Below are positions 38,092 to 55,073 of a DNA stretch of 57,824 bases, one piece after another; the stretch's first letter is position 1, and each line of letters starts with the position of its first letter. Source of the stretch: a virus; IMG/VR virus record IMGVR_UViG_3300049215_000077, positions 1 to 57,824 of that record; one strand, given 5' to 3'. The notes below the pieces were generated by a model, which was not told where the DNA came from, did no database searches, and worked only from the letters and a program-made list of their open reading frames with translations. A program made the translations under genes and the position numbers.

Positions 38092-38108
38092 TCCCGTCGC
38101 GTGTCCGC

Positions 38109-38124
38109 CGCCCGGAGACGGGCG
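38109..38124 (+). promoter_or_regulatory. GAGA-loop hairpin between protease and capsid genes
   Basis: CGCCCG-GAGA-CGGGCG forms a 6-bp GC stem with a GAGA tetraloop; a weaker copy ACCG-GAGA-CGGT lies at about 38146-38157. No T-run follows, so these are more likely mRNA-stability or processing elements for the capsid message than terminators. Confidence 0.45.
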
Positions 38125-38211
38125 AGCGCAGCTTGATCGTGCGGCTACCGGAGACGGTGCCGATCACCGCGCGTGAGCGCACCACCAATCTCCAAACACG
38201 GAACAACGATC

Positions 38212-39786
38212 ATGTATCAACCCAACCTGCAGCATATTCTTGCGAAGTCTGCGCTTCCGCGGACCTCGCAGGAATACGAAGTCGCGCTGACAAGTGCGAC
38301 CAGCTTCCTCAAGGAAGTCGAGAAGGCGCACGCCAGTCCGTTGCCTGGCGACCCTCTCGCCAAGAGCACGTTCTCACAGCCTGGCTCCGCGACGTCCGGT
38401 CTGAATTACTACGACTTGGAGCTCGGTGCGAAGTTTCTGTATCCGGTGCTCACGCCGCTCCGCAACGAAATCCCGCGCGTGTCGGGTAAGGGCGGCATCC
38501 AGGCAAACTGGCGTGCGGTCACCGGCGTCAACACGTCCGGTCTTCGCATCGGTGTCTCTGGCGGCAACCGTGGCGGCGTGCAGGCCGTGTCCACTCAGGA
38601 CTACACCGCGGCCTACAAGGGCATCGGCATCGAGACCTCGGTTGACTTCGAGGCGCAGTACGCCGGCATGGGCTTTGACGACGTGAAGGCGATCGGCGCC
38701 AAGACCGGCCTCGAAGCCTGTATGCTCGGCGAAGAAACCCTGATCCTCGGCGGCAACACGTCGCTTGCGCTCGGCACCACGCCAACGCCATCGACAACGC
38801 CGGCCACGTCGGGCGGCACTTTGGCGGACGCCACTTACAGCGTGATTTGCGTCGCGCTCTCGCTGGACGGTGTGATCAACGGCAGCGTCACTGGCGGCAT
38901 CCAAGGTCAGATCACGCGGCTCAATGCCGACGCTTCGTCCGACAGCTTCGGTGGTGGTGCGGCGCGCAAGTCGGCGGCGGCATCCGCGGTTGTCTCTGGC
39001 GGCGGCGGTGCTGGCTCCATATCGGCAACCGTTGCCGCAGTGACCGGCGCTCTCGGCTACGCGTGGTTCTGGAGCACGCCGGCCGGCTCGGAAGTCCTCG
39101 GTGCGATCACGACCATCAACTCGGTGGTGATCACCGCGACTGCGGCCGGCACGCAGACTGCCGCGTCGCTCGGCACCGGCGACAACTCGACGAACGGCTT
39201 GGTCTTCGACGGGTTGCTCACCCAGGCGCTCAAGAGCGGGTCGAACTCCTACGTCAGCTATCTGCCAACCGGCACTGCCGGAACTGGCACCGTTCTCACG
39301 GCTGACAACTTCGGTGGTATCGTCCAAGTCGATACCGCGCTCAAGTCGATGTGGGACAACTACCGTCTCTCGCCCGACACCATGTGGGTCGGCTCGCAGG
39401 TCGCTCAGAATATCAGCACCAAAATTCTGGCGAACTCCAACACCGGCGCTCAGCGGTTCACCATCACCGTTGATCAAGACAAGATCGTCGGCGGCGTGAT
39501 GGCGCGCAGCTATCTCAACAAGTTCTCGATGGCCGGCGCGAAAGACATCGAGATCAGGATTCACCCGAACATGCCTGCGGGCACGATCCTGATGACCAGC
39601 CGCACGCTGCCGTATCCGCTGTCGAATGTCGGCAACGTGATGCAGATCCGCACCCGTCAAGACTATTACCAGATCGAGTGGCCGCCTCGCGCCCGCCGCT
39701 ACGAGACTGGCGTGTATGCGGACGAAGTTCTGCAGCACTACTTCCCGCCGTCCATGGCGGTGATCGCGAACATCGCGGCCGGCTAA
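38212..39786 (+). CDS. Major capsid protein
   Basis: 524 residues from ATG 38212. The N-terminal region (residues about 50-90: KSTFSQPGSATSGLNYYDLE, FLYPVLTPLRNEIPRVSGKG) is the capsid pattern common in alphaproteobacterial phages. The middle has Gly/Ala/Ser-rich beta segments that may be an inserted surface domain. The C-terminus (MQIRTRQDYYQIEWPP) fits the HK97-type core. Followed by a terminator-like hairpin, as expected for a strongly made protein. Confidence 0.9.
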   Translation: MYQPNLQHILAKSALPRTSQEYEVALTSATSFLKEVEKAHASPLPGDPLAKSTFSQPGSATSGLNYYDLELGAKFLYPVLTPLRNEIPRVSGKGGIQANWRAVTGVNTSGLRIGVSGGNRGGVQAVSTQDYTAAYKGIGIETSVDFEAQYAGMGFDDVKAIGAKTGLEACMLGEETLILGGNTSLALGTTPTPSTTPATSGGTLADATYSVICVALSLDGVINGSVTGGIQGQITRLNADASSDSFGGGAARKSAAASAVVSGGGGAGSISATVAAVTGALGYAWFWSTPAGSEVLGAITTINSVVITATAAGTQTAASLGTGDNSTNGLVFDGLLTQALKSGSNSYVSYLPTGTAGTGTVLTADNFGGIVQVDTALKSMWDNYRLSPDTMWVGSQVAQNISTKILANSNTGAQRFTITVDQDKIVGGVMARSYLNKFSMAGAKDIEIRIHPNMPAGTILMTSRTLPYPLSNVGNVMQIRTRQDYYQIEWPPRARRYETGVYADEVLQHYFPPSMAVIANIAAG

Positions 39787-39808
39787 GTCGCCTGACGCCA
39801 CGATCCGT

Positions 39809-39840
39809 GACGGCTCCGCTTCACGGCGGAGCCGTCTTTC
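39809..39840 (+). terminator. Terminator-like hairpin after the capsid gene
   Basis: GACGGCTCCGC and GCGGAGCCGTC pair perfectly (11 bp) around a 6-base loop, followed by TTTC. The short T-run suggests partial termination that lowers expression of downstream genes relative to capsid. Confidence 0.75.
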
Positions 39841-39866
39841 ATCCAACCCCAACCATGAGGTTCGTC

Positions 39867-40379
39867 ATGAGATTGCGTGCACCACAGAGCGCCGGGAATC
39901 CGAATATCGCCGGAGTGACCATCAAGCCGGATGGCGACGGCCTTTACACCGTCGATCACGTTATCGGCGCGCACCTGGTCGAGTCGTTCGGTTTCACCGA
40001 TGCCGATGCACCGCCGCCCAAGCTGCCAGCGGCTCCGGTGGCCGCCACGCCGAACGTGTTGCGCGACGCAGTTCTCAACGCGCTTGAAACCCTTGGCGTA
40101 ACGATCGTGCCCGGCGCGCCGGATGATGTTCTGGCAAAGGCGATCCGCGAGACGGCGCTTGCGCAGAACGACAACACGTTGCTCGCGGTAAAGCGCGCCG
40201 AGAGCGACACGCTCAACCAATTCAGCGATGAGCTCACGGCGCTCAAGACTCGCGCCGAGACTGCCGAGGCGAAAGTCACGGAGCTCGAAGCCAAGATTGC
40301 TGCCACGCCGCCGGCGCAACCCGCCGACCAGGGCGGAGCGCAGCCCGACCAAAAGACCGGCGACAAGACCGGAGCGTAA
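39867..40379 (+). CDS. Hypothetical virion-region protein (170 aa)
   Basis: ATG 39867 has GAGG upstream. The N-terminal part (VTIKPDGDGLYTVDHVIGAH, LVESFGF) is a small beta domain; the C-terminal half is a coiled coil (ALKTRAETAEAKVTELEAKI) with a polar tail. Between capsid and connector genes; may be a head accessory protein. No known family named. Confidence 0.72.
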   Translation: MRLRAPQSAGNPNIAGVTIKPDGDGLYTVDHVIGAHLVESFGFTDADAPPPKLPAAPVAATPNVLRDAVLNALETLGVTIVPGAPDDVLAKAIRETALAQNDNTLLAVKRAESDTLNQFSDELTALKTRAETAEAKVTELEAKIAATPPAQPADQGGAQPDQKTGDKTGA

Positions 40380-40382
40380 CCA

Positions 40383-41252
40383 GTGGCCGCGTCAGATCTC
40401 GCTCAGCTGGCAGACGTGAAGGCGTGGCTGGCCGGCTCCAGCGGGATTGGCGCGGGCGACGATGTGCTGTTGGCGCGCCTGATCACTGACGTAAGCGGTG
40501 CGATCGCCGCCTATCTTGGGAGGCCGTTCATTCTTCCTCGATCATGGTCAGAGCGGTACGACGGAAACGGCAAGACGCGACTCTATCTCCGCAGCTGGCC
40601 GGTGTTGTCTGTGGCCTCGCTCGTTGTAGGCGACACCACGATTGCTGCCGCACCAACTCCCGGCGCCGGCGTCTCCTGGCAGGCAGGCTATCTCCTCGAT
40701 CCATGGGATGGCACGCCGCCCGGAATTCGTCAGGCGCTCGATCTTCGCGGCCACTGTTATTGGGGTGGTCGCCAGAACGTGCTCGTGTCCTACATGGCTG
40801 GCTATCAGGTGACGGCGGAGGCCGCGACGGTACCGGCCTCAACCGCATACACGGTCACGCCGCTGCAACCGTTCGGTCCCTGGGCGAGCGACTCCGGCGT
40901 GTCCTATGCGAACGGCACGGCGCTCACGCTGACAACGAATGCTCCGACGCAAGGGCAGTATCAGATCACGCTCAATCCGCAACCGGACCAGTCGCCGCCC
41001 ACGTGGTCGATCAAATACACGTTCGCGGCTGCGGACGCCGGCGCTGCCGTGCTGATCTCGTATGGGTTCATCCCGGCCGCGCTCAACAACGCTTGCATCG
41101 AGTGGGTCGCGGAACGCTACCGCTACCGCACGCGCATCGGACAATCGGCGCAGACGGTCGCTGGCCAGATGACCTCTGCGTACAGCCTCAAAGACATGCC
41201 TGACTTCATCCGGACGTCGCTCGATCCGTTCCGCAACGTGGTGCCGTTCTGA
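40383..41252 (+). CDS. Head-tail connector protein (gp6-like)
   Basis: 289 residues, GTG start. The N-terminal LAQLADVKAWLAGSSGIGAG and DDVLLARLITDVSGAIAAYL helices match the HK97 gp6-like adaptor family. An inserted beta-rich region and the C-terminal CIEWVAERYRYRTRIGQ close the fold. It should form the ring under the portal. Confidence 0.82.
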   Translation: MAASDLAQLADVKAWLAGSSGIGAGDDVLLARLITDVSGAIAAYLGRPFILPRSWSERYDGNGKTRLYLRSWPVLSVASLVVGDTTIAAAPTPGAGVSWQAGYLLDPWDGTPPGIRQALDLRGHCYWGGRQNVLVSYMAGYQVTAEAATVPASTAYTVTPLQPFGPWASDSGVSYANGTALTLTTNAPTQGQYQITLNPQPDQSPPTWSIKYTFAAADAGAAVLISYGFIPAALNNACIEWVAERYRYRTRIGQSAQTVAGQMTSAYSLKDMPDFIRTSLDPFRNVVPF

Positions 41253-41731
41253 TGCTGAACGTCACGCTGGTCGGCGATCGCGAGCTCGTACAGAAATTGA
41301 CGGCGATGCCGCAGCGCGTGCACGCCTCGTTGCTGCGGAAGGTTACGACGCTGGCGCTCCAGCTTGAGGCGAAGGTCAAGACCGCACTAAGCGGCGTGAT
41401 CCTCAACGTGCGATCGGGCGCGCTGCGCCGCTCTATCTTCGAGACGGTCGAGGACGATCCGACGAAGGTGATCGGCAAGGTCGCTTCGTCCGGCGACGTG
41501 AAATATGCGGCGATCCACGAATTCGGCGGAATGATTCCGGCGCATGAGATCGTGCCCGACAAGGCAAAGGCACTCGCGTTCCTGATCGGCGGCAAGCAGG
41601 TTTTTGCGCAGCGCGTTCAGATCCCAGCTATCGACATGCCGGAGCGCAGCTATTTGCGATCGTCGCTCGCCGATATGGCGGATGAGATTCAAGAGGGCTT
41701 GCGCGAGGCCGTGCATGACGGCGTGCAATGA
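41252..41731 (+). CDS. HK97 gp10-like head-tail joining protein
   Basis: 159 residues. VGDRELVQKLTAMPQRVHAS, RSGALRRSI, and AAIHEFGG are the usual gp10-family motifs. The start shares one base with the previous stop, and the end overlaps the tail-terminator gene by 4 bases. Confidence 0.88.
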   Translation: MLNVTLVGDRELVQKLTAMPQRVHASLLRKVTTLALQLEAKVKTALSGVILNVRSGALRRSIFETVEDDPTKVIGKVASSGDVKYAAIHEFGGMIPAHEIVPDKAKALAFLIGGKQVFAQRVQIPAIDMPERSYLRSSLADMADEIQEGLREAVHDGVQ

Positions 41732-42180
41732 CGGCCATCACCCGCGAACAGATTTCCGTCGCGTTCTTCAACCTCATCAAAGGCGCTACCGACTTCACGG
41801 CTACCAGCCGGCGCTTTGTCCATTGGGATCAGGTCAACGACACGCAGATGCCGTTCTTGACCATGCTCAAGACCGGCGAAATGCGGACGCGCGAAGATGA
41901 GGGCCTGCCGTCCATCACGCTGAACTATCACGTGTTCGTCTACACATCGTCGGGCCTGGACCCGGAAGACACTCCGGACACGGACATGAATGCGATGCTC
42001 GATGCGATCGACGCGGCCGTGAAGCCCACCGGCGCCGATCTGGTAGGACCGAACAAACAAACGCTCGGTGGCCTTGTCTCGCACTGCTATCCGCTCGGCG
42101 CCGTGTTCGTCGACACGGGCGACGTTGACGGCAAGGGCGTTGCGGCAATCCCGTTCACGATCCTCGCGCCCTGGTACTGA
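41728..42180 (+). CDS. Tail terminator/completion protein
   Basis: 150 residues (ITREQISVAFFNLIKGATDF, LPSITLNYHVFVYTSSG, YPLGAVFVDTGD) of the small alpha/beta type encoded between gp10-like and tail-tube genes. Position and shape support the tail terminator; identity is inferred. Confidence 0.75.
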   Translation: MTAITREQISVAFFNLIKGATDFTATSRRFVHWDQVNDTQMPFLTMLKTGEMRTREDEGLPSITLNYHVFVYTSSGLDPEDTPDTDMNAMLDAIDAAVKPTGADLVGPNKQTLGGLVSHCYPLGAVFVDTGDVDGKGVAAIPFTILAPWY

Positions 42181-42192
42181 CGGAGTCCAACG

Positions 42193-42384
42193 ATGGCAGA
42201 CAACGAAGCTGGCGATGTGGTCGCGCCGCTAGCGAAGCCGCACACGCTCGCCACTCTCGTTGAAGATTGGTTCGCAGAGAACTTTCACGGTTCGCCACAC
42301 ATGCGCGACACCGGAGCGTTCAACCATGTGCGCGCCGCGGTCGATGACCTCAAGCGGCGTCTCACCGAGGAGCACGGACAATGA
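42193..42384 (+). CDS. Small hypothetical protein (63 aa)
   Basis: A helical acidic protein (HTLATLVEDWFAENFHGSPH, VRAAVDDLKRRLTEEHG) between tail terminator and tail tube, overlapping the latter by 4 bases. Function unknown. Confidence 0.75.
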   Translation: MADNEAGDVVAPLAKPHTLATLVEDWFAENFHGSPHMRDTGAFNHVRAAVDDLKRRLTEEHGQ

Positions 42385-43133
42385 CGCAATATTCGTTCGG
42401 TAGCGGCACCTTGATCGGCAAGCGTACCGATGTGACCGGCACGCAGCCGTGCTTGCTCGGCACCCTCCAGGACGTCTCGGTGGACTTCGACCGCAAGGTC
42501 GAAACGCTGCTCGGTCAGTACAACATGCCGGTGGCGGCCGGTGGCGGCGAGTTCAAGATCAGCGGCAAGGCGAAGTTCGCGCGCTTGCAGGCCACGCAGA
42601 TCAACAACCTGTTCTTGGGGCAGACGCTCACAGCGAACGCGATGCTCGAAATGACGACGGGCGAGACCGTGACCGTTTCGAGCGGTTCAGCCACCGTCGC
42701 GAACGGGTCAACCTACGTCGAAGACCTCGGTGTCTTCAATCCGACCACCGGCGTGCAGTTGACGCCGGTGGCATCGTCGCCGGTTGCCGGCGTGTCGTAT
42801 GTGCCGGGCGTTGCCAGCACTGGCACGTACACCTTTGCGTCTGGCGACAACAGCCAAAGCTACTTGGTCTACTACAGCTACACGGTCTCGACCGGCAACA
42901 AGATCACGTTGACGAACCAGCTGACAGGCCCGGTGCCGCTGTTCGAGGTCGCGCTGAAAGAGTCGTTTAATTACTTCGGCTCGACGAAGGATTTGGTCCT
43001 CAAGCTGAACGCGTGCTTCGCACCGAAGCTTTCGCTGCCGTTCAGCAACACGAAGTTCACGATCGCCGAACTCGACTTCCAGGCGATCGCCGACGCCTCC
43101 AACAACATCGGCTATCTCAGCCTGACAGAATAG
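42381..43133 (+). CDS. Major tail (tube) protein
   Basis: 250 residues, beta-rich, with a Gly-rich N-terminus (SFGSGTLIGKRTDVTGTQPC), a KISGKAKFARLQATQINNLF segment, an inserted Ig-like-looking domain (about 100-160) and an FNYFGSTKDLVLKLN stretch. Its place before the gpG/gpGT pair and the tape measure identifies it as the tail tube. Confidence 0.87.
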   Translation: MTQYSFGSGTLIGKRTDVTGTQPCLLGTLQDVSVDFDRKVETLLGQYNMPVAAGGGEFKISGKAKFARLQATQINNLFLGQTLTANAMLEMTTGETVTVSSGSATVANGSTYVEDLGVFNPTTGVQLTPVASSPVAGVSYVPGVASTGTYTFASGDNSQSYLVYYSYTVSTGNKITLTNQLTGPVPLFEVALKESFNYFGSTKDLVLKLNACFAPKLSLPFSNTKFTIAELDFQAIADASNNIGYLSLTE

Positions 43134-43143
43134 GAGACTGCGC

Positions 43144-43536
43144 GTGAGTCTTGAGCGTGACGATAAAGCTGGTAGCGACGGCGCCCGCAATGTTGTGCTC
43201 GGTGGCCGCGAGTTCACGATCCTGCCGCTCACCTTGCGGCAGATCAGAGCGATCGCCAAGCAGGTGCCGAAACTCAGCAACATTGATGCGGCGAACATCA
43301 ACGATGAGAATATCGACCTGTTCGTCGACGTGCTGATGAACGGCATGAAGCGTTCGTACCCGCAGGTGACGGTAGACGACATTCTCGATCTGCCGATGAC
43401 GATGATGGAGCTCGCGCAGGCCTGCACCGTCGTCGTCGAACAGGCTGGCGGCAGAAAGACTGTCGCCGCGGGGGAAGCACAGGCGACGAGCGATTCGACG
43501 AAATCGACTGGGGAAAGCTCGTCGCCGAGCTCGTAA
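43144..43536 (+). CDS. Tail assembly chaperone gpG
   Basis: 130 residues: a folded LPLTLRQIRAIAKQVPKLSN region and a Ser/Thr-rich tail. It is the first product of the usual tail chaperone pair. A run of five G (43470-43474) near its end allows a -1 shift into the gpGT frame. Together gpG and gpGT load the tape measure for tube polymerisation. Confidence 0.85.
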   Translation: MSLERDDKAGSDGARNVVLGGREFTILPLTLRQIRAIAKQVPKLSNIDAANINDENIDLFVDVLMNGMKRSYPQVTVDDILDLPMTMMELAQACTVVVEQAGGRKTVAAGEAQATSDSTKSTGESSSPSS

Positions 43537-43736
43537 TCGAACTCTGCTGGACCCGCGATCAGGTCCTCGACCAAGTCGATATCCCGTTTCTCGAAGACCT
43601 GCGCAGCGCATGGGATGACTGTCCCTCGCTGCGCAGGATGGTGGCGGCTTATCTCGGCATCAAGCCGAAGGAGAAGCCGTCGAAGAACTTCCACAAGCTG
43701 CTCGCCCTGTTCCCTGGCGGCGTGATCCGGGCGTAA
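43470..43736 (+). CDS. gpGT frameshift extension (-1 frame)
   Basis: In the -1 frame the DNA encodes DERFDEIDWGKLVAELVIEL, then CWTRDQVLDQVDIPFLEDL and YLGIKPKEKPSKNF, ending at 43736, 4 bases before the tape-measure start. It has no start of its own in the right place and continues where gpG ends, which is the classical T-extension of phage tail chaperones. The likely slip is at GCG-GGG-GAA (43468-43476). The full fusion would be about 197 residues. Confidence 0.83.
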   Translation, partial: GGSTGDERFDEIDWGKLVAELVIELCWTRDQVLDQVDIPFLEDLRSAWDDCPSLRRMVAAYLGIKPKEKPSKNFHKLLALFPGGVIRA

Positions 43737-43740
43737 CGGC

Positions 43741-45879
43741 ATGGCTGACAACGACGTCCAGGTCACATTCGGCGCGTCGATCGAGGGCCTGACCTCTGCC
43801 GTCGAACAGGTCAAGTCGTCGATCACCAGCATCACCGATCCGATCCAGTCGCTCAAATCGACACTGACGGAATTCGGTGAGATCTTCGCCGCTGTCTTCG
43901 CTGTCGAGAAAATCGCGAAGTTCGTAGAGAGCTTCGCGGAACTCGGCACTCAGACGGAACGAACCGCGGCGCTTCTCGGCACGTCGGCGTCTCAGGTCAG
44001 TGGCCTGAACCTGATGGCGGAGGCGAGCGGTGGTACGCTCGGAGAACTGACAAGCGCCGTGGAGCGCCTTGGGCTGAGTCTGGCGCGAAGCGACGCCGGC
44101 AGTCAGCAGGCGCGCGCGGGACTGGCGGCACTCGGCATTTCGGCGCGAGAGCTCCAGGCATTGCCGCTTGAGGGCAAGCTTGAGCTCCTTGCATCGAAGT
44201 TCTCGGTGCTCAAAGACGGCTCGGAAAAAGACGCGATCGCGATGGCGTTGCTCGGCCGTGCCGGCGCCAACATGATCCCGATCTTCAACGAGGGTGCGGG
44301 CGCAATCGCCGAATTTCAGGCGATGGCGCAGCGCGCCGGCTCCAGCATGTCCGGCGACCAGCTGGCGGCGGCGCACGCGCTGCACATGGGCATCCTCGAG
44401 CTCGGCGCGAGTTGGACCGGGCTATCGAACACGATCGTGACGCTGTTTCAGCCTGCGCTGAGCGGCATCATCAAAGTCGTCACGGACATCATCCAGTCGT
44501 TCAACAACTCGACGAAGGAGGCAAGCACTCTCGGTTCGGCGATGAAGGTCTTGGCGGTGGCCGCCGATCTTCTCGCCAGCGCGTTTGCGGCCGCATCGAC
44601 TGCGGTGCAGACGTTGTGGACACTGTTCAAGGCGTTCGTGGTCGGCGCCGCGAACGATCTGATCGCGCTCAATAAGCTTATCGTCAGTGCGTTCACGCTC
44701 AGCTTCGACGGCGTGAAGGAGGCTTACGCCGATCTGGTCGCTTCCAACAAGGCGGCGTTCCAGGGCGCGAGCACCGAGCTCGCGACGATCGCGAAGAACT
44801 ACAACGACGAAATGAGCGCGATCTGGACTGACGGCGCGAACAAGCACGTCGAGATCGAGCAAAATAAAGTCGCTCGGCTGGCGATGGTCGATCGCGCTCT
44901 CGTCTCTCAGCAGATGAAAGACGTGGATTCGCAGATCAAGGTTCTGCAGGATGGCCTCAAGGCCAAGGTCCAGCTGTACGATGAGGAAGCCAACACCTTC
45001 CAGATCACGCAGAACCAAAAGTTCGCGCTGGTCGAACAGGCGACCGAAGCTGAGTTCAAGGCCGAGCTCGATCTGCTTCAAAAGGAACAGCAGCTTAACA
45101 ATCTGTCCGTCGAACAAAAACGACAGATGGCGGACAAGATCAAGGAGGCGTGGGCGAAGCATGACCTCGAAATGGTCACGCTCGACAAGCAGTCGATCGC
45201 CGCGCAGCAACAGCTTTGGACCTCGTTCCTCAATACGATCGAAAGCTCGTTCAACTCGCAGCTTCGCGGGCTGTTGGCCGGCACCACGTCGTGGTCGCAG
45301 GCGTGGCGCAAGATGCTCGGCGACATGATTATCAAGTTCATCGAAATGTGTGAGGAAATGGTCGTGAAGTGGGCGGCAGCGCAGCTTGCGCAGACCACGG
45401 CTTCGACCACGGGCGCTGCGGCGCGGCTCGCAGCCGACCAGACAGCTAACAACGCCGGAATGGTCGGCATGGTCGCGAACGCGATCAAGGCGATCATGAC
45501 GGATGCCGGCCAGGCTTTCGCCGGCGTGTTCGCGTTCCTCGCGCCGACGATGGGCCCGGCCGCGGCTGGTCCAGCCTCGGCGGCGATGGCTTCGGTATCG
45601 GCAGCGGCGATATTCGAGACCGGCACGGACTACGTGGTGCGCGGCGGTCTCGCGCTGATCCATCCCGGCGAGACAATCATCCCGGCCGCGAAGGGCACGG
45701 GCCCGTACACGGGCGGTGGCGGCGCACAGGTTCACGCGCCGGTCAGCATCAACGTGTCGGCGCTGGACTCGCAGAGCGTGTCGCGGTTCTTCAACGACAA
45801 CTCGAAGCACATGCTGCGGGCGATCAACGAGGCGGTGCGCCGCGGTGCGCACCTGGGAATGCGCACCGCGCACGCATGA
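43741..45879 (+). CDS. Tape measure protein
   Basis: 712 residues, nearly all helical, with hydrophobic segments in the middle (VVTDIIQSF, LAVAADLLASAFAAA, ALQTLWTLF-like) and an Ala/Gly-rich C-terminus. By the usual rule of about 0.15 nm per residue the tail would be roughly 105 nm long. It sets tail length and is ejected into the host envelope. Follows the chaperone pair by 4 bases. Confidence 0.9.
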   Translation: MADNDVQVTFGASIEGLTSAVEQVKSSITSITDPIQSLKSTLTEFGEIFAAVFAVEKIAKFVESFAELGTQTERTAALLGTSASQVSGLNLMAEASGGTLGELTSAVERLGLSLARSDAGSQQARAGLAALGISARELQALPLEGKLELLASKFSVLKDGSEKDAIAMALLGRAGANMIPIFNEGAGAIAEFQAMAQRAGSSMSGDQLAAAHALHMGILELGASWTGLSNTIVTLFQPALSGIIKVVTDIIQSFNNSTKEASTLGSAMKVLAVAADLLASAFAAASTAVQTLWTLFKAFVVGAANDLIALNKLIVSAFTLSFDGVKEAYADLVASNKAAFQGASTELATIAKNYNDEMSAIWTDGANKHVEIEQNKVARLAMVDRALVSQQMKDVDSQIKVLQDGLKAKVQLYDEEANTFQITQNQKFALVEQATEAEFKAELDLLQKEQQLNNLSVEQKRQMADKIKEAWAKHDLEMVTLDKQSIAAQQQLWTSFLNTIESSFNSQLRGLLAGTTSWSQAWRKMLGDMIIKFIEMCEEMVVKWAAAQLAQTTASTTGAAARLAADQTANNAGMVGMVANAIKAIMTDAGQAFAGVFAFLAPTMGPAAAGPASAAMASVSAAAIFETGTDYVVRGGLALIHPGETIIPAAKGTGPYTGGGGAQVHAPVSINVSALDSQSVSRFFNDNSKHMLRAINEAVRRGAHLGMRTAHA

Positions 45880-45888
45880 GCGCCGTCC

Positions 45889-48411
45889 ATGACTGGGTTC
45901 ATCAACGGCGTTCATCTTCTACCGTCCACGGGCGAGTTCACTTACGACACGGTGCCTTATCTCGGTCAGCGGACAACCGAGACCGTCGTGTCGTCGATCA
46001 ACCGCTATGCGAATGGCGGGCCGCTCGCCGGTACCGGGACGGTCACTGACTACACGCTGGCGATCAACAATCTGCAGGCGACATATCCAGGCTGTACGAC
46101 GGTCGCTGTTGTCGTCGCGTGGTTTGGGAATTCGACGGACGTAACAGCCTGCAAGATTTACCCGTCGACCACGTACATCAACGGGACGTTCGCACCGGCC
46201 GCGGGCGGTTCCGACGTGTGGCGGTGCTCGAGTCTAACGCAGTCATCGTCGGGGCTGATCCCGATCCCGCAGAGCGGGAACGCCTTCATCTACGGCGGCA
46301 CACCCTCCGACCAATCGATCGTGCGGTGCATCCGCGACCTCAAAGCGCGCGGGCTGCGCGTTGTGTTCTATCCCTTCATCCTGATGACCGCGGGCGGCGA
46401 ACCGTGGCGCGGCGAGATCACGTATAACGGCGCCGACATTTCGAGCGCGGCGACAACCGCGATCAACAACTTCTTGGGGACGGCGACAACCTCGCAGTTC
46501 ACGCAAGACGCCACGAACCTGACGGTGGCGTACTCCGGATCGGCGACCGATTACACGTATCGGCGGATGATCCTGCACTATGCGAACCTGGTCTGCATTG
46601 CAGGTGGAGTCGACCTGTTCTTGCTCGGCTCGGAATTTCGCGGCCTTGAGACTGTTCGCGGTCCGGCGTGGACGAAAGCCGGCACGGTGTCGGGCGGCAC
46701 CACCACGTGGGACTACCCGTTCGTGGCCGGGCTTGTGCAACTCGCGGCTGACGTGCGCAGCGTGTTCACCGCCGCGTCTCTCTCGAAAGACATGGTGAAC
46801 CTGCACAACCTAATCTCATATTCGGCCGATTGGTCTGTATGGATGGGCTATCAGCATCCGGGCGCGAACGGCCAATGGCCGCACCTGGATCAGTTGTACG
46901 CATCATCGAACATCGACCTCGTCTCGTTCGACAACTACCTGCCGCTGTCTGACTGGACCACCGGCGAAGGAGGACTCGACGCTAAGAATTGGTTGACGCC
47001 GGCGCCGACCGGCACGTGGCCGCCATCACCTTCGACGTTCAACGGCCTCGGCCTCAGCGGCCAGCCGACGATCTATTCGCTCCCATATCTGAAAGCGAAC
47101 ATCGAGGGCGGCGAGCACTTCAACTGGTTCTACAACGACAGCAACAATAACGGACTCGGCTTCGATCCGAACGGTACAGATCTTCGCGTGTCATTGCCCG
47201 AAGGCGACCGCCTCACGCAATCGCGCAATCAGTATTACCCCGGACAACAGTTGCTCGCGAACAAGCAGCTGCGATGGTGGTGGAACAATCAGCACTACGC
47301 GATCTACGATGATGGCGATGGCAACGGCTGGGCGCCGCACGGATCGCCGACCGAGTGGGTGCCAAACTCGAAGTCGATCATTTTCGCGGAGTATGGATTC
47401 GCCTCGGTCGATCGGGCGACCAACCAACCGAACGTCTTCTACACACCGGCGTCCGCCAACAGCTTCACACCGTACTGGTCGGTTTGGGACCCGAATGCCA
47501 GCACGGGCGGCGGCTACTACCCGCGGCGCGACGACAACCTGCAGCTGCTCGCGTTGCAGGCCATTTATGAGTATTGGGTCACTGACGGAAATAACGCCAC
47601 GGTCGGCGGAGTGCCGATGGTCCAGACCACGTTCATGATGGCGTGGAATTGGGATGCGCGGCCGTTCCCCACACTTCCGCAGCAAAGTGAGACGTGGGGT
47701 GACGCGCCAGGATGGGCGGCCGGCTTCTGGATTGGCGGCAAAGGTCCGTTCATTGCCGTGCCGGCACCGGACGAATCGCCCGCGCTTGGCCCGTACCCGA
47801 CTTTCCCGACGATCGACACGATCGGCTGGTCGGTAAAGCTTTCGCCGATCTTCTCGACGGCGGCAGGAATGCACGTCTCGGGCAAAGAGGTTCGTGCTGC
47901 GAAGCAGTCCACGCCGCGATGGAAAGTCGAGTTAAACTACGACTTGTTGCGGATGGTTTCGCCCAACACCGAGCTACAACAGATCGTCGGCTTCTTCGAG
48001 GATATGCAGGGTGAAGACGGCTCGTTTTATTTTGAGCCGATATCACTGTCGCCGGCGGCCGCACAGTCGATCGGTACAGGCGACGGCACAACGACCACGT
48101 TCTACTTCGCGGTGTCCATCGGCGGGTATTCGCTCACGCCTGCGAATGTCGGCGCGGTGTCTGCGGTCTATCTGAACGGCGTGTCGCAGTCTGGCGGCTT
48201 TGCGATTGCTAGCGCGCCGTTCGGCGCGAGTGTGACCTTCGCGTCGGCGCCGGGTGTTGGGGTGGCGATCACCGCCGACTTTCATTGGTACTTGCTCTGC
48301 CGTTTCGTTGACGACGATCTGGACGTCGAGGAATGGGCGAGCGAGCTCTATGCGCTGCAATCGCTGCAGCTTGAGGCCGTCAAAGGTTACCCCCCCCCCC
48401 CTGAATTTTGA
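45889..48411 (+). CDS. GTA TIM-barrel domain fused to DUF2460 tail protein
   Basis: 840 residues. Residues about 80-600 match the GTA_TIM glycoside-hydrolase-like barrel (VVVAWFGNSTDVTACKIYPS, RGLRVVFYPFILMTAGG, LFLLGSEFRGLETVRG, IDLVSFDNYLPLSDW). Residues about 640-835 are a DUF2460 domain (RWKVELNYDLLRM, CRFVDDDLDVEEWASELYAL). In Rhodobacter-type GTA the TIM domain sits on the hub protein instead. The gene ends GYPPPPEF right after a 12-C tract; a one-base change joins a further 49-residue module. Confidence 0.9.
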   Translation: MTGFINGVHLLPSTGEFTYDTVPYLGQRTTETVVSSINRYANGGPLAGTGTVTDYTLAINNLQATYPGCTTVAVVVAWFGNSTDVTACKIYPSTTYINGTFAPAAGGSDVWRCSSLTQSSSGLIPIPQSGNAFIYGGTPSDQSIVRCIRDLKARGLRVVFYPFILMTAGGEPWRGEITYNGADISSAATTAINNFLGTATTSQFTQDATNLTVAYSGSATDYTYRRMILHYANLVCIAGGVDLFLLGSEFRGLETVRGPAWTKAGTVSGGTTTWDYPFVAGLVQLAADVRSVFTAASLSKDMVNLHNLISYSADWSVWMGYQHPGANGQWPHLDQLYASSNIDLVSFDNYLPLSDWTTGEGGLDAKNWLTPAPTGTWPPSPSTFNGLGLSGQPTIYSLPYLKANIEGGEHFNWFYNDSNNNGLGFDPNGTDLRVSLPEGDRLTQSRNQYYPGQQLLANKQLRWWWNNQHYAIYDDGDGNGWAPHGSPTEWVPNSKSIIFAEYGFASVDRATNQPNVFYTPASANSFTPYWSVWDPNASTGGGYYPRRDDNLQLLALQAIYEYWVTDGNNATVGGVPMVQTTFMMAWNWDARPFPTLPQQSETWGDAPGWAAGFWIGGKGPFIAVPAPDESPALGPYPTFPTIDTIGWSVKLSPIFSTAAGMHVSGKEVRAAKQSTPRWKVELNYDLLRMVSPNTELQQIVGFFEDMQGEDGSFYFEPISLSPAAAQSIGTGDGTTTTFYFAVSIGGYSLTPANVGAVSAVYLNGVSQSGGFAIASAPFGASVTFASAPGVGVAITADFHWYLLCRFVDDDLDVEEWASELYALQSLQLEAVKGYPPPPEF
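48390..48401 (+). repeat. Twelve-C homopolymer at the gene end
   Basis: Twelve consecutive C from 48390 to 48401, the longest mononucleotide run I noticed in the window. With 12 C the frame ends at TGA 48409-48411. With 11 (or 14) it would run on to 48550. Tracts like this slip in replication and are also prone to sequencing error. Confidence 0.97.
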
Positions 48412-48550
48412 TGATCATCAGATCGCCGATGATCTTAAAGCGGGTGAGAGCATGGACTTCGGATTGGTGACGAGCATCGCTACGAGCGCCGATGACTTCG
48501 GCGTGTTGGGGGCAAATATCGAGATCGCGATCGACCTTGGGACCCTCTGA
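48402..48550 (+). other. Out-of-frame C-terminal module of the preceding tail gene
   Basis: In the +1 frame after the C tract the DNA encodes LNFDDHQIADDLKAGESM then DFGLVTSIATSADDFG and ends IEIAIDLGTL at 48550. The stop TGA shares its A with the ATG of the next gene. The C-terminus of the hub protein at 53387 has the same module (DHPVAEALLVATSMDFGLVT ... DDYG ... IDVDLG). An internal ATG at 48452 with GGGTGAGAG upstream might also make it as a 32-residue peptide. Confidence 0.75.
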
Positions 48551-49509
48551 TGACGACGCCGCCTTCGCTGCCGTCGCTGGCCGGTCTCACATGGTCTCGG
48601 CATAAGAAGCCAGCATTTTCGACGCGGGTAGCGCCGCATGTGTCGGGGCGCGAGGTGCGTGTCGCGCTCATGGCTTATCCGCTCTACGAGTTCGATGCGG
48701 TCTATAGCGGGCTGGCATCGAATTCGACGGCATCGTTCGCCGGTCTCGGATCAAGCAGCCTGCAAACCCTCATGGGGTTTTTCTTGCAGCTGCAGGGGCA
48801 GTTTGGGACGTTCCTTTATGCTGATCCTGACGACAGCGCCGTCACCGGCCAGGCTTTCGCGACCGGCAATGGCAGCACGTCAGCGTTCACGATCGAACGG
48901 TCGCTTGGTGGCTTCCTCGAACCTGTCGGTTGGGTGACCGCGCTCAACAACGTTTATCTGAACAGCAACGCGATCCCTGCCGCGGGATTTTCGGCGCCAG
49001 CCGCACCGTCGCTGTCGCAGAGCTCAGGCGGATCGCTGGGCGCCACGACAATCTACACGAAGATCACTTACCTCACCGCCGCGGGCGAGACTTTGCCTTC
49101 TTCCGAGGCCTCGCTTGCCGTCTCTGCATCGCACCTATTGAACGTCGCATCGCCATCGGCGCCGTCGCCGGCGAGTGCTACTGGCTGGAACGTGTATGCG
49201 GCCAGCACATCCGGCGCGGAGAAGCTGCAAAACAATACGCCAATCGCGATCGGCACCGGCTGGGTCGAACCGACATCGGGATTGGTCACCGGCACCGCGT
49301 CGCCGCCATCGTCGAACACGACGGGATGGACGCTGACGACGCCGAACACGCTGACCTTCGGCGGCAACGTCGCGAATGGCGTCATCGTGTCGGCCGATTT
49401 CACTTACGCGTTCAACTGTCGGTTCCTCGACGATCAATTGGACTTCGAGGAGTTCATGTCGAACCTGTGGAAGCTTGACGATATGAAGTTCCGCAGCGTG
49501 AAGCCATGA
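48550..49509 (+). CDS. Second DUF2460 tail protein with inserted domain
   Basis: 319 residues. The N-terminal (VSGREVRVALMAYPLYEFDA, LQTLMGFFLQLQGQFGTFLY) and C-terminal (CRFLDDQLDFEEFMSNLW) parts match DUF2460, like the end of the previous protein. Between them is an insert of about 100 residues with a fibronectin/Ig-like look (TIYTKITYLTAAGETLPSSE, GWNVYAAS). It is the GTA g12-like distal tail protein. Two DUF2460 copies in tandem indicate duplication. Confidence 0.9.
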   Translation: MTTPPSLPSLAGLTWSRHKKPAFSTRVAPHVSGREVRVALMAYPLYEFDAVYSGLASNSTASFAGLGSSSLQTLMGFFLQLQGQFGTFLYADPDDSAVTGQAFATGNGSTSAFTIERSLGGFLEPVGWVTALNNVYLNSNAIPAAGFSAPAAPSLSQSSGGSLGATTIYTKITYLTAAGETLPSSEASLAVSASHLLNVASPSAPSPASATGWNVYAASTSGAEKLQNNTPIAIGTGWVEPTSGLVTGTASPPSSNTTGWTLTTPNTLTFGGNVANGVIVSADFTYAFNCRFLDDQLDFEEFMSNLWKLDDMKFRSVKP

Positions 49510-50381
49510 AGCCGACTTCGTCGGCGCTCATCACCTATCTCAATGCGGCGCGCGCGAGCCCGGACGTCCCGCTGTTCATGGCGGATGCGTTCACCTTCAC
49601 GATGCGAACCGGCTTGATCCTTTGCTACACCAACGTGGACGTGACGTTCACGTACAACGGGAACACGTATCTCGCGAATTCGATCTTGGTTGACGGCCTC
49701 AAGTACAAGGCCGCGGTCGGGCTCGAAGTCGATCAACAGCAGATCACGGTCGCTGCCCGTTCCACTGACACGATATCGGGCGGCGCACCGTTCCTGCAGG
49801 CGTTGCGTGACGGCTCCTTCGACGGCTGCGAGATCGAACGCTACCGGATATTCTTTTCCGACAGGATCGGTGGCACCGCGATCGGTGCCGTGACGCTGTT
49901 CAAGGGGCGCCTCGGCAACGTCGACCAGATCGGCCGAACGTCGGCGAAGCTCACGGTCAACTCTGACCTTGTGCTCCTCGACATCGACATGCCGCGCGAT
50001 GTCTATCAGCCGACGTGCCTCCACACGCTCTACGACTCCGGGTGCACGCTGGTCAAAAACGCGTTCGGCACCAACGGCACGTGCGCTGCCGGATCCACTG
50101 CCGGCGTCATCGAGTGGTCGGGTGCGAGCGCAAACTATCAGCAGGGGTCGATCACCTTCACGTCGGGGGTGAACGCGGGGGTCACCGCCAACGTGATGAG
50201 CGTGGTCGCCGGCGTCTCTATGGCGCTGGGCTATCCGCTGCAGAGCACACCGGCGACTGGCGACGGCTTCACGGTCTACTTCGGCTGCGATCACACGCCG
50301 GGAACCTGCAACTCGAAGTTTAACAACCTCGGCAATTTCCGGGGCTTTCCTTATGTGCCGCCGCCGCAGATGGCGATTTGA
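49506..50381 (+). CDS. DUF2163 tail-tip protein
   Basis: 291 residues. The DUF2163 pattern includes FTMRTGLILCYTNVDVTFTY, DGLKYKAAVGLEVDQQQIT, the LFKGRLGNVDQIGRTSA turn, CLHTLYDSGCTLVKN and a late Cys-rich CDHTPGTCNSKFNNLGNFRG. It is the GTA g13-like component between distal tail protein and hub. Overlaps the previous gene by 4 bases. Confidence 0.92.
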   Translation: MKPTSSALITYLNAARASPDVPLFMADAFTFTMRTGLILCYTNVDVTFTYNGNTYLANSILVDGLKYKAAVGLEVDQQQITVAARSTDTISGGAPFLQALRDGSFDGCEIERYRIFFSDRIGGTAIGAVTLFKGRLGNVDQIGRTSAKLTVNSDLVLLDIDMPRDVYQPTCLHTLYDSGCTLVKNAFGTNGTCAAGSTAGVIEWSGASANYQQGSITFTSGVNAGVTANVMSVVAGVSMALGYPLQSTPATGDGFTVYFGCDHTPGTCNSKFNNLGNFRGFPYVPPPQMAI

Positions 50382-50390
50382 GAAAAGCGC

Positions 50391-50738
50391 ATGACCGTAC
50401 ATCGCCTTATCGACACGCGCGGCCGTCCGGTATCGAGCAAGCCGCGGGCCGAGCCTATCAAGCGCGCCAATGATCATCAGCGCGAGATCGTCGACACCAA
50501 TGCACACAGCGTCACGCTGACCGCTTTGGTGCTGGCGCTCGCCAAGCAATTCGTGGTTGCCACGGACGATGCCACCGCGGCCGAGTTCATCGGCTACTTC
50601 AACGACCAGTCGCGCAAGATGGCTGCGCAACTCGGCCATCCCGCGATCGCCACGGCGGCTGAGGAAAAGACCAGTCAACTCGCGGGCATGTTGCTCGCCA
50701 AACGGGCCGAAGCAAAGCGCGATGGTATCGGAGGCTGA
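50391..50738 (+). CDS. Hypothetical protein in the tail-tip cluster (115 aa)
   Basis: A polar N-terminus (RLIDTRGRPVSSKPRAEPIK) followed by helices (LTALVLALAKQFVVATDDAT, EKTSQLAGMLLAKRAEAKRD). It overlaps the peptidase gene by 17 bases. No homologue recognised; not part of the standard GTA set. Confidence 0.75.
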   Translation: MTVHRLIDTRGRPVSSKPRAEPIKRANDHQREIVDTNAHSVTLTALVLALAKQFVVATDDATAAEFIGYFNDQSRKMAAQLGHPAIATAAEEKTSQLAGMLLAKRAEAKRDGIGG

Positions 50739-51177
50739 ACAACGCGCGGCCATCGTCGCGGAGGCGCGTACCTGGCTCGGCACGCCGTACCACAACTGTG
50801 CCGATGTAAAGGGCGCCGGCGTGGACTGCGGCATGTTGCTAGTCAGGGTCTTTTGCGACACCGGCCTATGCCCGCCGTTCGATCCGCGGCCCTATGCGAT
50901 CGACTGGCACATACACCGGGACGATGAACGCTATCTCGGCTTCGTCTTTGATCGCGCGTCTGAGGTAACGGCCGCGCAGCCCGGCGACGTCATGGTCTTC
51001 AAGTACGGCCGCACTTATGCACATGGCGGCATCGTCTCGGTGCCGAACCCGCTCACGATCGTCCACGCCTATCATCCGGCGCGCCGCGTGCTCGAGGAGG
51101 TTGTCGCAACGAACGGTGCGCTGATGGAGCCTAAGCGCGCGCCGCGGTTCTTCTCGTATTGGGCTGTGAAAAAATGA
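50722..51177 (+). CDS. NlpC/P60-type tail peptidase
   Basis: 151 residues from ATG 50722. ARTWLGTPYHNCADVKGAGV followed by DCGMLLVR carries the catalytic Cys, and YAHGGIVS the His, as in GTA g14-like cell-wall peptidases. It is thought to open peptidoglycan locally during DNA entry or to help tail assembly. The stop overlaps the hub ATG. Confidence 0.9.
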   Translation: MVSEAEQRAAIVAEARTWLGTPYHNCADVKGAGVDCGMLLVRVFCDTGLCPPFDPRPYAIDWHIHRDDERYLGFVFDRASEVTAAQPGDVMVFKYGRTYAHGGIVSVPNPLTIVHAYHPARRVLEEVVATNGALMEPKRAPRFFSYWAVKK

Positions 51178-53387
51178 GCGGCCTACGCAGTCTCTTTGGC
51201 GGAGGCGGTAATTCGTCGGCTGTTGCGCCCGACTATACCGGTCTTCAAATTCAGACGGCGGTAAGCGCGCTGCCGATTCCGATCGTGTGGGGCATGTCGA
51301 AGATCGCCCCGAATGTGATCTGGTACAACAACTTCCAGACCATCGCGCAGTACGGCGGCGGCGGGAAATACGGCAGTAGCGGCGGCAAAGGCGGCGGCGG
51401 TGGTGGTGGCGGCGGCATAACCGGCTACACGTACACCGCAGCCGTGATCCTCGCGCTTTGCGAGGGGCCGATCATCGGCATCAATTACGTCTGGAAAAAT
51501 CAGTCCACTTACACGCTCGCCGAGCTCGGGCTGTCGCTGTTCACGGGCACCACGCCGCAGACGACATGGAGCTACATCGCATCGGCGTATCCATCGCAGG
51601 CGCTCGCTTATCAGGGCACGGCCTATGTGTGCGCGCCCGACTACAGCCTTGGCGATAGCGCGACACTCGACAACCACAACTTTGAGATTCAGGGCCTCCA
51701 GTACGGCACTGGCTACGGACAGATCGCGTATTCTTCGGATCAGGCGCTTGTGTCTGGCCCGGCGCCGGCGACAGGGTTCTACGACGCCGATCCGTCGCTG
51801 TGCACAAACGACTTCCTGACCAATGCGCAGTTCGGCGTCGGCTTTCCGGGCGGCTCGATCGACGCCACGTCGCTGTTCACGCAAGGTGGCGGCAACGACG
51901 CTTCCTATCAGACTTATTGTCGGGCCGTGGGGCTATCGCTCTCGCCGGCGCTTATCGACCAGGAGCAAGCGTCAAGCATCTTGGCGCGATGGCTGCAATT
52001 GACGAACACTGCCGCGGTGTGGTCGGGTGGCCTGTTGCGGTTCATTCCGTATGGCGATGCGGCGGTGACCGGGAACGGCATCACGTTCAATCCGAACGTC
52101 ACGCCGATCTACAATCTTGGCGATGACGACTACAAGGCGGAGGCCAACGAAGATCCGCTGCAGGTGTCGCGCAGCGATCCCTACGAGGCCTATAACGTCT
52201 GGCGGCTCGAAGTTGCGGAGCGCGATAACGCGTACAATTTGACGCCGATAGAAGCACGCGATCAAAACGCGATCGAGCTCTACGGAATGAGGATCGCGCC
52301 GACCGTCACGGCGCACGAAATCTGCGATGAGAATGTCGCGGCAGTCGCCGGGCAATTGATCCTGCAGCGCGCGGTCTACATCCGCAACACGTACAAGTTT
52401 CGGCTGTCGTGGGAGTATTGCCTTCTCGACCCGATGGACCTGGTCACGGTCAGCGACACGATCCTCGGCTTGGCGAACGCGCCGATCCGCCTTACCGAAA
52501 TCGAGGAGGATGAGAGCGGCTTCTTGAGCGTGACGGCCGAGGAATTTCCTTTGGGTGCGGCGACCGCCACGCTTTATCCGACACAAACGGTCACGAACAA
52601 TCCGTTGAACCGGAGCGTGGTGCCCGATCCGGTCAACACGCCGATCATCTTCGAGCCGCCGTCCGCGCTCGTGGGCGGTTCGCCGCAAGTGTGGATTGCC
52701 GCATCGGGCGGCAGCGGCGGCGTCGCCGATCCGAATTGGGGAGGAGCCAACGTCTGGCTGTCGGTTGACGGCAGCACCTATACCCAAGTGGGGTCGATGG
52801 TCGGCGCCACACGCCAAGGCTTAACCACCGCAAGTTTCCCGTCGTTCAGCGGCACGAACCCGGACACGACTGACACGCTCGCTGTGAACCTCACGGAGAG
52901 TGGCGGCACGCTGACAAGCGGCACCGCTCTCGATGCGCAACTCGCCAACACGCTCTGCATCGTGGATAGCGAGCTCATATCGTTCGAGACCGCTACGCTC
53001 ACGACGGCGAACCATTATTCTCTGACAACAATCTACCGCGGGCTGTACGGCACAACCGCCGCCAGCCATTCGAGCGGCGCACCGTTCGCGCGTCTCGACT
53101 CGACCGTGTTCAAGTACGACCTACCGGCGCAGTTCGTCGGCGTCGAGCTATTTATCAAATTGCAGAGCTTCAACGTCTTCGGCGCCGGACTCCAGGAGCT
53201 CAGTGCGTGTACGGCGTACACCTATATTCCGAGCGGTGCCGCGAGCGATCACCCGGTCGCCGAGGCGCTGCTGGTCGCAACATCAATGGACTTCGGTCTG
53301 GTGACGGGCACCGTCGCCACCGAAGACGACTACGGGAACGGCTTCACTCTCGCTGTCGAAATCGACGTTGATCTTGGCGCGGCGTAG
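51174..53387 (+). CDS. Tail-tip hub / host-specificity protein (J-like)
   Basis: 737 residues from ATG 51174. The N-terminus (ALPIPIVWGMSKIAPNVIWY), a Gly-run loop at about 64-82, the beta-rich middle (LQVSRSDPYEAYNVWRLEVA) and YIRNTYKFRLSWEYCLLDPM fit the Phage-tail_3 region of GTA/lambda hubs. It lacks the TIM barrel found on GTA g15, which is here on the gene at 45889. The last 45 residues (DHPVAEALLVATSMDFGLVT...) repeat the module encoded out of frame at 48402. No separate tail fibre is evident, so its C-terminus may bind the host. Confidence 0.9.
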   Translation: MSGLRSLFGGGGNSSAVAPDYTGLQIQTAVSALPIPIVWGMSKIAPNVIWYNNFQTIAQYGGGGKYGSSGGKGGGGGGGGGITGYTYTAAVILALCEGPIIGINYVWKNQSTYTLAELGLSLFTGTTPQTTWSYIASAYPSQALAYQGTAYVCAPDYSLGDSATLDNHNFEIQGLQYGTGYGQIAYSSDQALVSGPAPATGFYDADPSLCTNDFLTNAQFGVGFPGGSIDATSLFTQGGGNDASYQTYCRAVGLSLSPALIDQEQASSILARWLQLTNTAAVWSGGLLRFIPYGDAAVTGNGITFNPNVTPIYNLGDDDYKAEANEDPLQVSRSDPYEAYNVWRLEVAERDNAYNLTPIEARDQNAIELYGMRIAPTVTAHEICDENVAAVAGQLILQRAVYIRNTYKFRLSWEYCLLDPMDLVTVSDTILGLANAPIRLTEIEEDESGFLSVTAEEFPLGAATATLYPTQTVTNNPLNRSVVPDPVNTPIIFEPPSALVGGSPQVWIAASGGSGGVADPNWGGANVWLSVDGSTYTQVGSMVGATRQGLTTASFPSFSGTNPDTTDTLAVNLTESGGTLTSGTALDAQLANTLCIVDSELISFETATLTTANHYSLTTIYRGLYGTTAASHSSGAPFARLDSTVFKYDLPAQFVGVELFIKLQSFNVFGAGLQELSACTAYTYIPSGAASDHPVAEALLVATSMDFGLVTGTVATEDDYGNGFTLAVEIDVDLGAA

Positions 53388-53456
53388 CCGCGACTCCTGA
53401 CTTCCGCCCGTGAAGGGCTGAGGGCGTACATCGCCAACAACCAAGAGGTGAACGTG

Positions 53457-54098
53457 ATGCGAGCTGTTCTCGCCACGCTGATTTTTTGTCTTGTCGCCAC
53501 GCTGTCTTTGCCGGCAGCTGCACGCACGCAACGCCATCCGGTCCATCCGATGGTGCAAGGGCTCGGCATCGGGCTCGCCTACATGCTCTCGCATAAGGAT
53601 CATCGCTCGTACTACGCGGGGCCGGCCGCAATGCCGGTCTATGGCTATCAGGAGGCGCAACCGCGCCGATCGGCTTCACGCCCACCGCGAGTTCGCGAGT
53701 TCGCGAGCGTGCAGGAGCCGGTCCGCCAAGTCGCAAGGTTTGTCGGCCGCGTCGTCGGCGATATTGGCCAGATCGTCAGCCATCCGGCAGGCTGTCCACA
53801 CACTGAATTCTGCGGTTGCGGTGCCTCACTCCGGATCTTCGGCAAGCCCGTGCGCGAACTGTTCCTCGCCGCGAACTGGCTCAAGTTTCCGCGTGCTTCG
53901 CCGGCGCCGGGCATGGCGGCCGTCTACGGTCATCATCACGTTGCGGTCATCGAGAGCGTGAACCTCGACGGCACTGCTATCCTCTACGACGCCAACAGCG
54001 GACACCACCTGACGCGTATCCATCGCGCGTCGCTCGCCGGCGCCATAGTCGTGAACCCGCGCGGCGGCACGATCAATGTTCGTGCGGCATCGCCGTAG
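53457..54098 (+). CDS. Secreted CHAP-like endolysin or cell-wall protein
   Basis: 213 residues from ATG 53457. It begins with a Sec-type signal (LATLIFCLVATLSLPAAARTQ). The C-terminal half has CPHTEFCGCGASLRIFG, LAANWLKFPRASPAPGMAAV and HHHVAVIESV, a Cys and His arrangement like CHAP amidase/peptidases. A related host-type protein with the same core is known from rhizobia as a hypothetical. A signal-carrying endolysin is possible. Confidence 0.72.
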   Translation: MRAVLATLIFCLVATLSLPAAARTQRHPVHPMVQGLGIGLAYMLSHKDHRSYYAGPAAMPVYGYQEAQPRRSASRPPRVREFASVQEPVRQVARFVGRVVGDIGQIVSHPAGCPHTEFCGCGASLRIFGKPVRELFLAANWLKFPRASPAPGMAAVYGHHHVAVIESVNLDGTAILYDANSGHHLTRIHRASLAGAIVVNPRGGTINVRAASP

Positions 54099-54312
54099 CC
54101 CGCGCATCTTCAATCCAGAGGTCCCGCCTGATGCGGTATGGGGTGACGTGGGTTTTGTCATCCCGCCGATCGTCGAGCTCGATCGAGACGTGATGGCGTG
54201 GTGGCGACGTCGCCTTGTGCGCTTCGCAATCGGCGCTGGCGTCGCGATCGGCGGAATGGTCGCCGCAGCGGTGATCGCGCTTTTTCATTTTTTCCTTGGA
54301 GCCGGTACATGA
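54076..54312 (+). CDS. Membrane protein, possible holin partner (78 aa)
   Basis: Overlaps the preceding gene by 23 bases and the next ATG by 4 (ATGA), which supports it. One strong transmembrane segment (FAIGAGVAIGGMVAAAVIAL) near the C-terminus with a basic WWRRRLVR before it. Could be a holin or an accessory membrane protein of the lysis set. Confidence 0.65.
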   Translation: MFVRHRRSPRIFNPEVPPDAVWGDVGFVIPPIVELDRDVMAWWRRRLVRFAIGAGVAIGGMVAAAVIALFHFFLGAGT

Positions 54313-55073
54313 GCATCACGATCATCGACACTGACGTTCCACTGACGGCCGCGAAGCTTGCGCAGCTAAAGGCGCAAGGCATCGTCTCGATCGGCCGATA
54401 TCTCAACCGCCGCAACCCGTCCGGCGATAAGGTCATCAAGCCGGCTGAGGCGCGCTTGTTCCAGGCGTGCGGGATGCGGCTCTTCTTGATCTACGAATTC
54501 GACGGCAAGCCGAGCGGTCCAGCGGTCGGCGCCGCGGACGGTGCTTGGTCCGCTGCCTATGCGCCAACAGTCGGCGCGCCAACGGATGGCAGCGCGTTCA
54601 TCGCCTACACGGTGGACTACGACGCGCCGGAAGCGGACATGCCGGGAATCAAGGCGGCATTCACCGAGTTCAGCGCGGCGATCAAGCCGAAGTTCACGAC
54701 GTGGGCTTACGCGTCTGGCGCGGTCAATGCGTCGCTGTTGGCGGCGAAGCTCATCACCGGCCGATGGCTGACCTGCTCAAGCGGCTTCCGCGGCAGCAAG
54801 CAGGCGCTCGCTGCAGGCGACTATGAAATGCGGCAGGCGATCCCGCAGGAGATTGCAGGCCTCGACACCGATCCGGACTCCACGCACGTCGCGAACATGA
54901 TGATCGGCTTCGTGCCGTTTGCGAGCGCCACGTCGGTTGACGCGCCCAAGCCCGCGCCGAGCTCGAGCACGGCGGCCGCATCGGCGCCGAAGGCGGCAGC
55001 GCCGGCCGCGGCGATCATAGCGCCCGCCACAGGATGGTTCGCGCGCTTCAGGCAACGGCTCGGCCTCGCCTGA
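54309..55073 (+). CDS. DUF1906-type glycoside hydrolase-like endolysin
   Basis: 254 residues. ITIIDTDVPLTAAKLAQLKA, a GIVSIGRYLN start, FLIYEFDG, FIAYTVDYDA and TWAYASGAVN follow the TIM-barrel DUF1906/Rv2525c family of peptidoglycan-active enzymes. The C-terminal 50 residues are Ala/Pro/Ser-rich. Probably the main endolysin. No signal peptide, so it would need a holin. Confidence 0.87.
   Translation: MSITIIDTDVPLTAAKLAQLKAQGIVSIGRYLNRRNPSGDKVIKPAEARLFQACGMRLFLIYEFDGKPSGPAVGAADGAWSAAYAPTVGAPTDGSAFIAYTVDYDAPEADMPGIKAAFTEFSAAIKPKFTTWAYASGAVNASLLAAKLITGRWLTCSSGFRGSKQALAAGDYEMRQAIPQEIAGLDTDPDSTHVANMMIGFVPFASATSVDAPKPAPSSSTAAASAPKAAAPAAAIIAPATGWFARFRQRLGLA

Follow-up and report, generated by a model that had tools for sequence, protein, structure and literature searches.

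A C tract between a phage tail gene and a megatron-like C-terminal module: a possible site of C-terminal phase variation

Background

In a phage genome known from a metagenome alone, a tail gene ends just after a run of 12 C, and the loss of one base from this run would replace the end of its product with a module homologous to the C-terminus of another tail protein. This raises the question of whether the tract is a switch in a tail-tip protein, as the initial annotation of the locus proposed, or a miscounted fixed sequence, a site of ribosomal frameshifting or the edge of an untranslated insert. Phages are known to vary their receptor-binding parts by DNA inversions and diversity-generating retroelements, and switching by simple repeats is best known from bacteria. 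Shallow keyword searches of the open literature surfaced no phage tail gene in which a homopolymer acts as a switch.

The analysed stretch of DNA (hereafter, the window) spans the 57,824 bases of one IMG/VR virus record, so that the length of the tract rests on one metagenomic assembly. A likely integrase ORF (185-1285, judged from its translation), together with terminase, portal and RcGTA-like tail genes, suggests that the phage is probably a temperate siphophage. Elsewhere in the window, about 8.6 tandem copies of a 39-base unit (16662-17034) lie within an ORF (16534-17226) whose product contains repeats of ADPEVRARHAAAM.

Results

The tract and its reading frames

The tail gene, here called dufA (45889-48411, plus strand, as assembled), encodes a GTA_TIM domain (about 46552-47679; Pfam PF13547, E 2.6e-96) fused to a DUF2460 domain of the distal-tail type (about 47803-48381; Pfam PF09343, E 2.6e-27), and is followed by a second DUF2460 gene, dufB (48550-49509, plus strand; Pfam PF09343, E 6.4e-32). 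The tract of 12 C (48390-48401, plus strand) lies inside the linker codons after VKG-Y of dufA and ends 10 bases 5' of the last base of the stop codon. As assembled, the 0-frame ORF has the C-terminus LQLEAVKGYPPPPEF, ending in LQLEAVKG-YPPPPEF with the stop at 48411, and leaves a gap of 138 bases before dufB. The +1 frame stays open as far as the TGA at 48548-48550, the last base of which is also the first base of the dufB ATG at 48550, and the third frame has a stop immediately 3' of the tract. Consequently, 11 or 14 C give a long form of dufA (with 11 C, YPPP-LNFDDHQIADDLKAGESMDFGLVTSIATSADDFGVLGANIEIAIDLGTL and then the TGA), 12 C give a short form with an eight-residue tail and the YPPPPEF-type end, and 13 C give a short form that stops at once after the tract. 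The tract, its frames and the TGATG junction at which the long-form stop meets the next start codon had all been described in the initial annotation, and our reading of the sequence agrees with that description.

The tract is the sole homopolymer of at least 7 bases in the window, in which the expected number of C runs of at least 12 is 0.0004 under a first-order model. The longest C or G run in 1.8 Mb of related loci, which are partly redundant, is 11 bases. A C11 tract at position 882 of locus L058 is flanked by apparent hairpin arms, as judged by eye, and a C9 tract at position 15249 of locus L099 is possibly close to the 3' end of an ORF.

The extension is homologous to the C-terminus of a megatron-type protein

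The region added in the long form (48402-48550, plus strand; 49 residues counting the CTG at 48401) was matched with an i-E of 5.4e-11 by a profile of 13 megatron C-termini from which the extension itself had been left out. The family positions D-H, D-x-G, D-D-F-G and L-G are all retained in the alignment. Among windows from the phage's own genes, the codon score of the extension ranks at the 53rd percentile, and the other two forward frames over the same region score -0.5 and -1.0 per codon. When the module alone was subjected to structure prediction, a helix and a beta-hairpin were obtained (pLDDT 74, pTM 0.33); a prediction for a longer megatron C-terminus (pLDDT 40) was discarded. Separate translation of the module was considered and rejected, as no obvious Shine-Dalgarno sequence was seen by eye before either in-frame ATG (48350 and 48452).

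The homology with the C-terminus of another tail protein of this phage, as originally reported, is thus upheld, although the label of hub given to that protein is not. The protein encoded at 51159-53387 (plus strand) carries both Phage-tail_3 and Rcc01698_C domains (Pfam PF13550 and PF23666) and matches the RcGTA megatron (6tba) with a phmmer E of 2.9e-9. On its domains and similarity, it corresponds to the RcGTA megatron Rcc01698; a hub-type gene with a Pfam baseplate hub N-terminal domain is located at 49506-50381. GTA_TIM is absent from the megatron-type chain and sits in dufA instead, and this arrangement, a GTA_TIM-DUF2460 fusion with a megatron lacking the TIM domain, is common to 44 orthologues. 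The megatron's own copy of the module occupies 53232-53387 (plus strand, stop codon included), with the profile match at 53232-53378 (i-E 5.2e-25). All clear copies of the module in the other related loci analysed are at megatron-type C-termini. In L118 (7586-7855) and L121 (3025-3258), the megatron-type protein apparently ends in two copies of the module.

A recent duplication of the phage's own megatron module was rejected, since the two copies share only 42-44% identity in protein; a duplication would have to date far back, unless the module came from another phage. At 54%, the G+C content of the extension lies below the roughly 62% of the window, which would fit such a foreign origin without proving it. 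The extension was found in no other viral contig, including when dufA plus the extension was used as the query, and in no cultured phage (tblastn, E up to 5).

The module is derived in the lineage of this phage

We compared the end of dufA in 44 distinct orthologues from viral contigs and bacterial genomes. In 43 of them, the protein ends at most two residues from the position of Gly-833 in the window, which directly precedes the Tyr opening the linker. The module is absent from the dufA end in all 44. None has a C or G run longer than 5 within 60 nt of the stop codon, and the tract itself is lacking throughout. A maximum-likelihood tree of 36 rows placed the window beside L004 (support 100/97) and nested inside the orthologue set; dufA of L004 ends where the linker of the window begins, without the module. 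Since 43 of the 44 orthologues end at the start of the linker and lack the module, the module is a graft known solely from the lineage of the window. The claim that the long form is the original one therefore fails for the family as a whole. Junctions without a homopolymer in relatives had been named in advance as evidence against a switch, and every relative has such a junction; as the relatives also lack the module, however, these junctions do not decide the matter.

The only other extension of dufA was in L087 (about 5850-5956), consisting of 32 in-frame residues that are unlike the module and whose stop overlaps dufB. Unrelated DNA lies between dufA and dufB in L030, L042 and L185, with gaps of up to 832 nt. 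The gap in L185 is about 730 bases (reverse complement about 1730-2460), and its reverse-strand ORFs seem toxin-antitoxin-like from a reading of their translations.

The long form as the probable working state

Within this lineage, several features point to the long form. Read with 11 C, the linker (YPPPLNFDDH) is exactly as long as the usual linker of the megatron (YTPTGxAxDH), a match that was read by hand and in which automatic DNA alignment placed gaps. The sequence looks as if the module and the linker had arrived jointly and part of the linker DNA had later become a C run.

The start of dufB was also informative. dufA and dufB overlap by four bases in 25 of the 44 orthologues. The Shine-Dalgarno sequence before dufB is weak in overlapping relatives (median -5.4 kcal/mol, n=27) and strong in those with a gap (median -11.6 kcal/mol, n=13; Mann-Whitney p 2e-5, with relatedness ignored). 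In the window it has a value of -3.9 kcal/mol, weaker than in all 13 gap-type relatives, of which L140 (-4.2) is close. A weak Shine-Dalgarno sequence would be expected if ribosomes normally translated the module first and reinitiated at TGATG. Within the lineage of the window, the long form thus has the look of the intended product, and it probably was, and is, translated. It can be called the original form only in the narrower sense that, after the graft, the in-frame state probably preceded the C12 state.

Discussion

The explanation that we prefer, tentatively, is that of a grafted module behind a slippage-prone linker. The C-terminal module of a megatron, with its linker, would have been copied in between dufA and dufB in this phage lineage, joining it to dufA in a fusion gene with a stop codon that overlaps the start of dufB, and part of the linker DNA would then have turned into the C tract. 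Translation would normally give the long form, which is in frame with 11 C and with every tract length that leaves a remainder of 2 on division by 3, and the C12 of the assembly would be an off-length allele from replication slippage, with dufA returned to a near-canonical length, the module missing and dufB uncoupled. The tract may then act as a C-terminal phase-variation site of a tail-tip protein. Consistent with this, it is a homopolymer of at least about 10 bases near the 3' end of a gene, and the frames give distinct, meaningful C-termini, namely the homologous module in the +1 frame and a near-canonical end in the 0 frame. A fuller version, in which the locus is a contingency locus where slippage toggles both the grafted module and the coupling of dufB, so that a single phage population would produce particles of two tip compositions, appears doubtful.

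The main rival to the grafted module with a slippage-prone linker is a miscounted length, in which the tract would be a fixed, in-frame run of 11 C and dufA a plain fusion with an extra module and no switch. Long C runs are prone to sequencing and assembly errors, and the codons, the conserved residues, the linker length and the coupled-type start of dufB all suit the in-frame state. However, the assembly agrees without an indel over 15.3 kb with two other contigs (L002 and L069, IMG/VR set 3300047462; matching the window exactly at 37889-48315 and 49707-54592), in a region where the longest homopolymer is 6, and a genuine tract of 11 C would be slippage-prone too. We consider this explanation unlikely, though a serious contender. 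The two contigs end on either side of the tract, short of it. A search for a second allele of the tract among viral contigs found none, as no other viral contig contains the extension.

Two further explanations take the 12 C at face value. In one, the module would have landed between dufA and dufB out of frame because of the tract, and only the short form would be made. The short form extends just eight residues past the canonical end, and unrelated DNA also lies in the dufA-dufB gaps of the three relatives described above. Nevertheless, the frame of the module is intact with gene-like codons and conserved positions kept, dufB lacks the strong Shine-Dalgarno sequence typical of gap relatives, and what was inserted behind this tail gene is itself a tail module, which the tract alone puts out of phase; a dead insert is thus improbable. 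A programmed or leaky +1 shift of ribosomes at the run of CCC codons, producing a minority of long dufA from a fixed 12 C, is slightly more improbable still. Four successive proline codons do precede the 0-frame stop, +1 shifts on CCC occur in structural genes of Listeria phages PSA, A118 and A500 (PMC5009743), and E. coli has a tRNA-Pro with a natural tendency to shift on runs of CCC (PMC4519876). On the other hand, the stop is two codons past the last proline codon and does not adjoin the shift codon, and a 12-base homopolymer exceeds what a shift site needs. Neither a stable structure in the RNA 3' of the tract (z 0.75) nor a shift site conserved among the 44 relatives (0/44) was found, and for these two reasons we rank DNA slippage above programmed recoding.

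If the preferred explanation is true, one homopolymer governs whether a tail-tip module is present and whether the next tail gene is coupled. Even with a fixed tract, the locus records a tail module that moved from a megatron to a distal-tail-type protein.

Comparison with known systems

The baseplate of RcGTA comprises the distal tail protein Rcc01695, the hub Rcc01696 and the megatron Rcc01698 (PMC7296036), and related families are encoded here in the same order. Binding of the hub and the megatron in RcGTA involves the distal tail protein's C-terminal residue, and the tail fibres are held by the megatron's last domain (PMC7296036). From the former contact, a module added to dufA would sit near the baseplate interface. 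By analogy, a protein of the distal-tail type that carries such a megatron end-module might offer additional contacts or points of attachment at the tip; the module may belong to the fibre-holding part, and reversible switching, if it occurs, could alter the virion and its host binding. The locus departs from RcGTA in having a pair of DUF2460 genes and in carrying the TIM domain on a DUF2460 protein instead of on the megatron. A sequence search of solved structures in the PDB gave no match to the C-terminal module.

In the Listeria phages, as could be the case here, a structural gene has two C-termini, of which the long one arises through a +1 change at CCC. Their site consists of a single CCC codon accompanied by a stop or a pseudoknot in a fixed DNA sequence (PMC5009743), whereas here there is a 12-base tract and no downstream structure was detected.

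The closest likeness to the preferred explanation is with Helicobacter canadensis, in which G tracts of at least 10 near gene ends vary in sequence reads, a phenomenon named C-terminal phase variation in that study (PMC2823697). There, as would be the case here, a run of at least 10 G or C lies near the 3' end of a gene and a change in its length swaps the C-terminus while expression continues. One tract in that bacterium would even fuse a gene with the next gene (PMC2823697). The present case differs in that the gene is a phage tail gene seen at one assembled length, as opposed to a bacterial gene with variation in the reads, and in that its alternative C-terminus is a recognisable homologous module.
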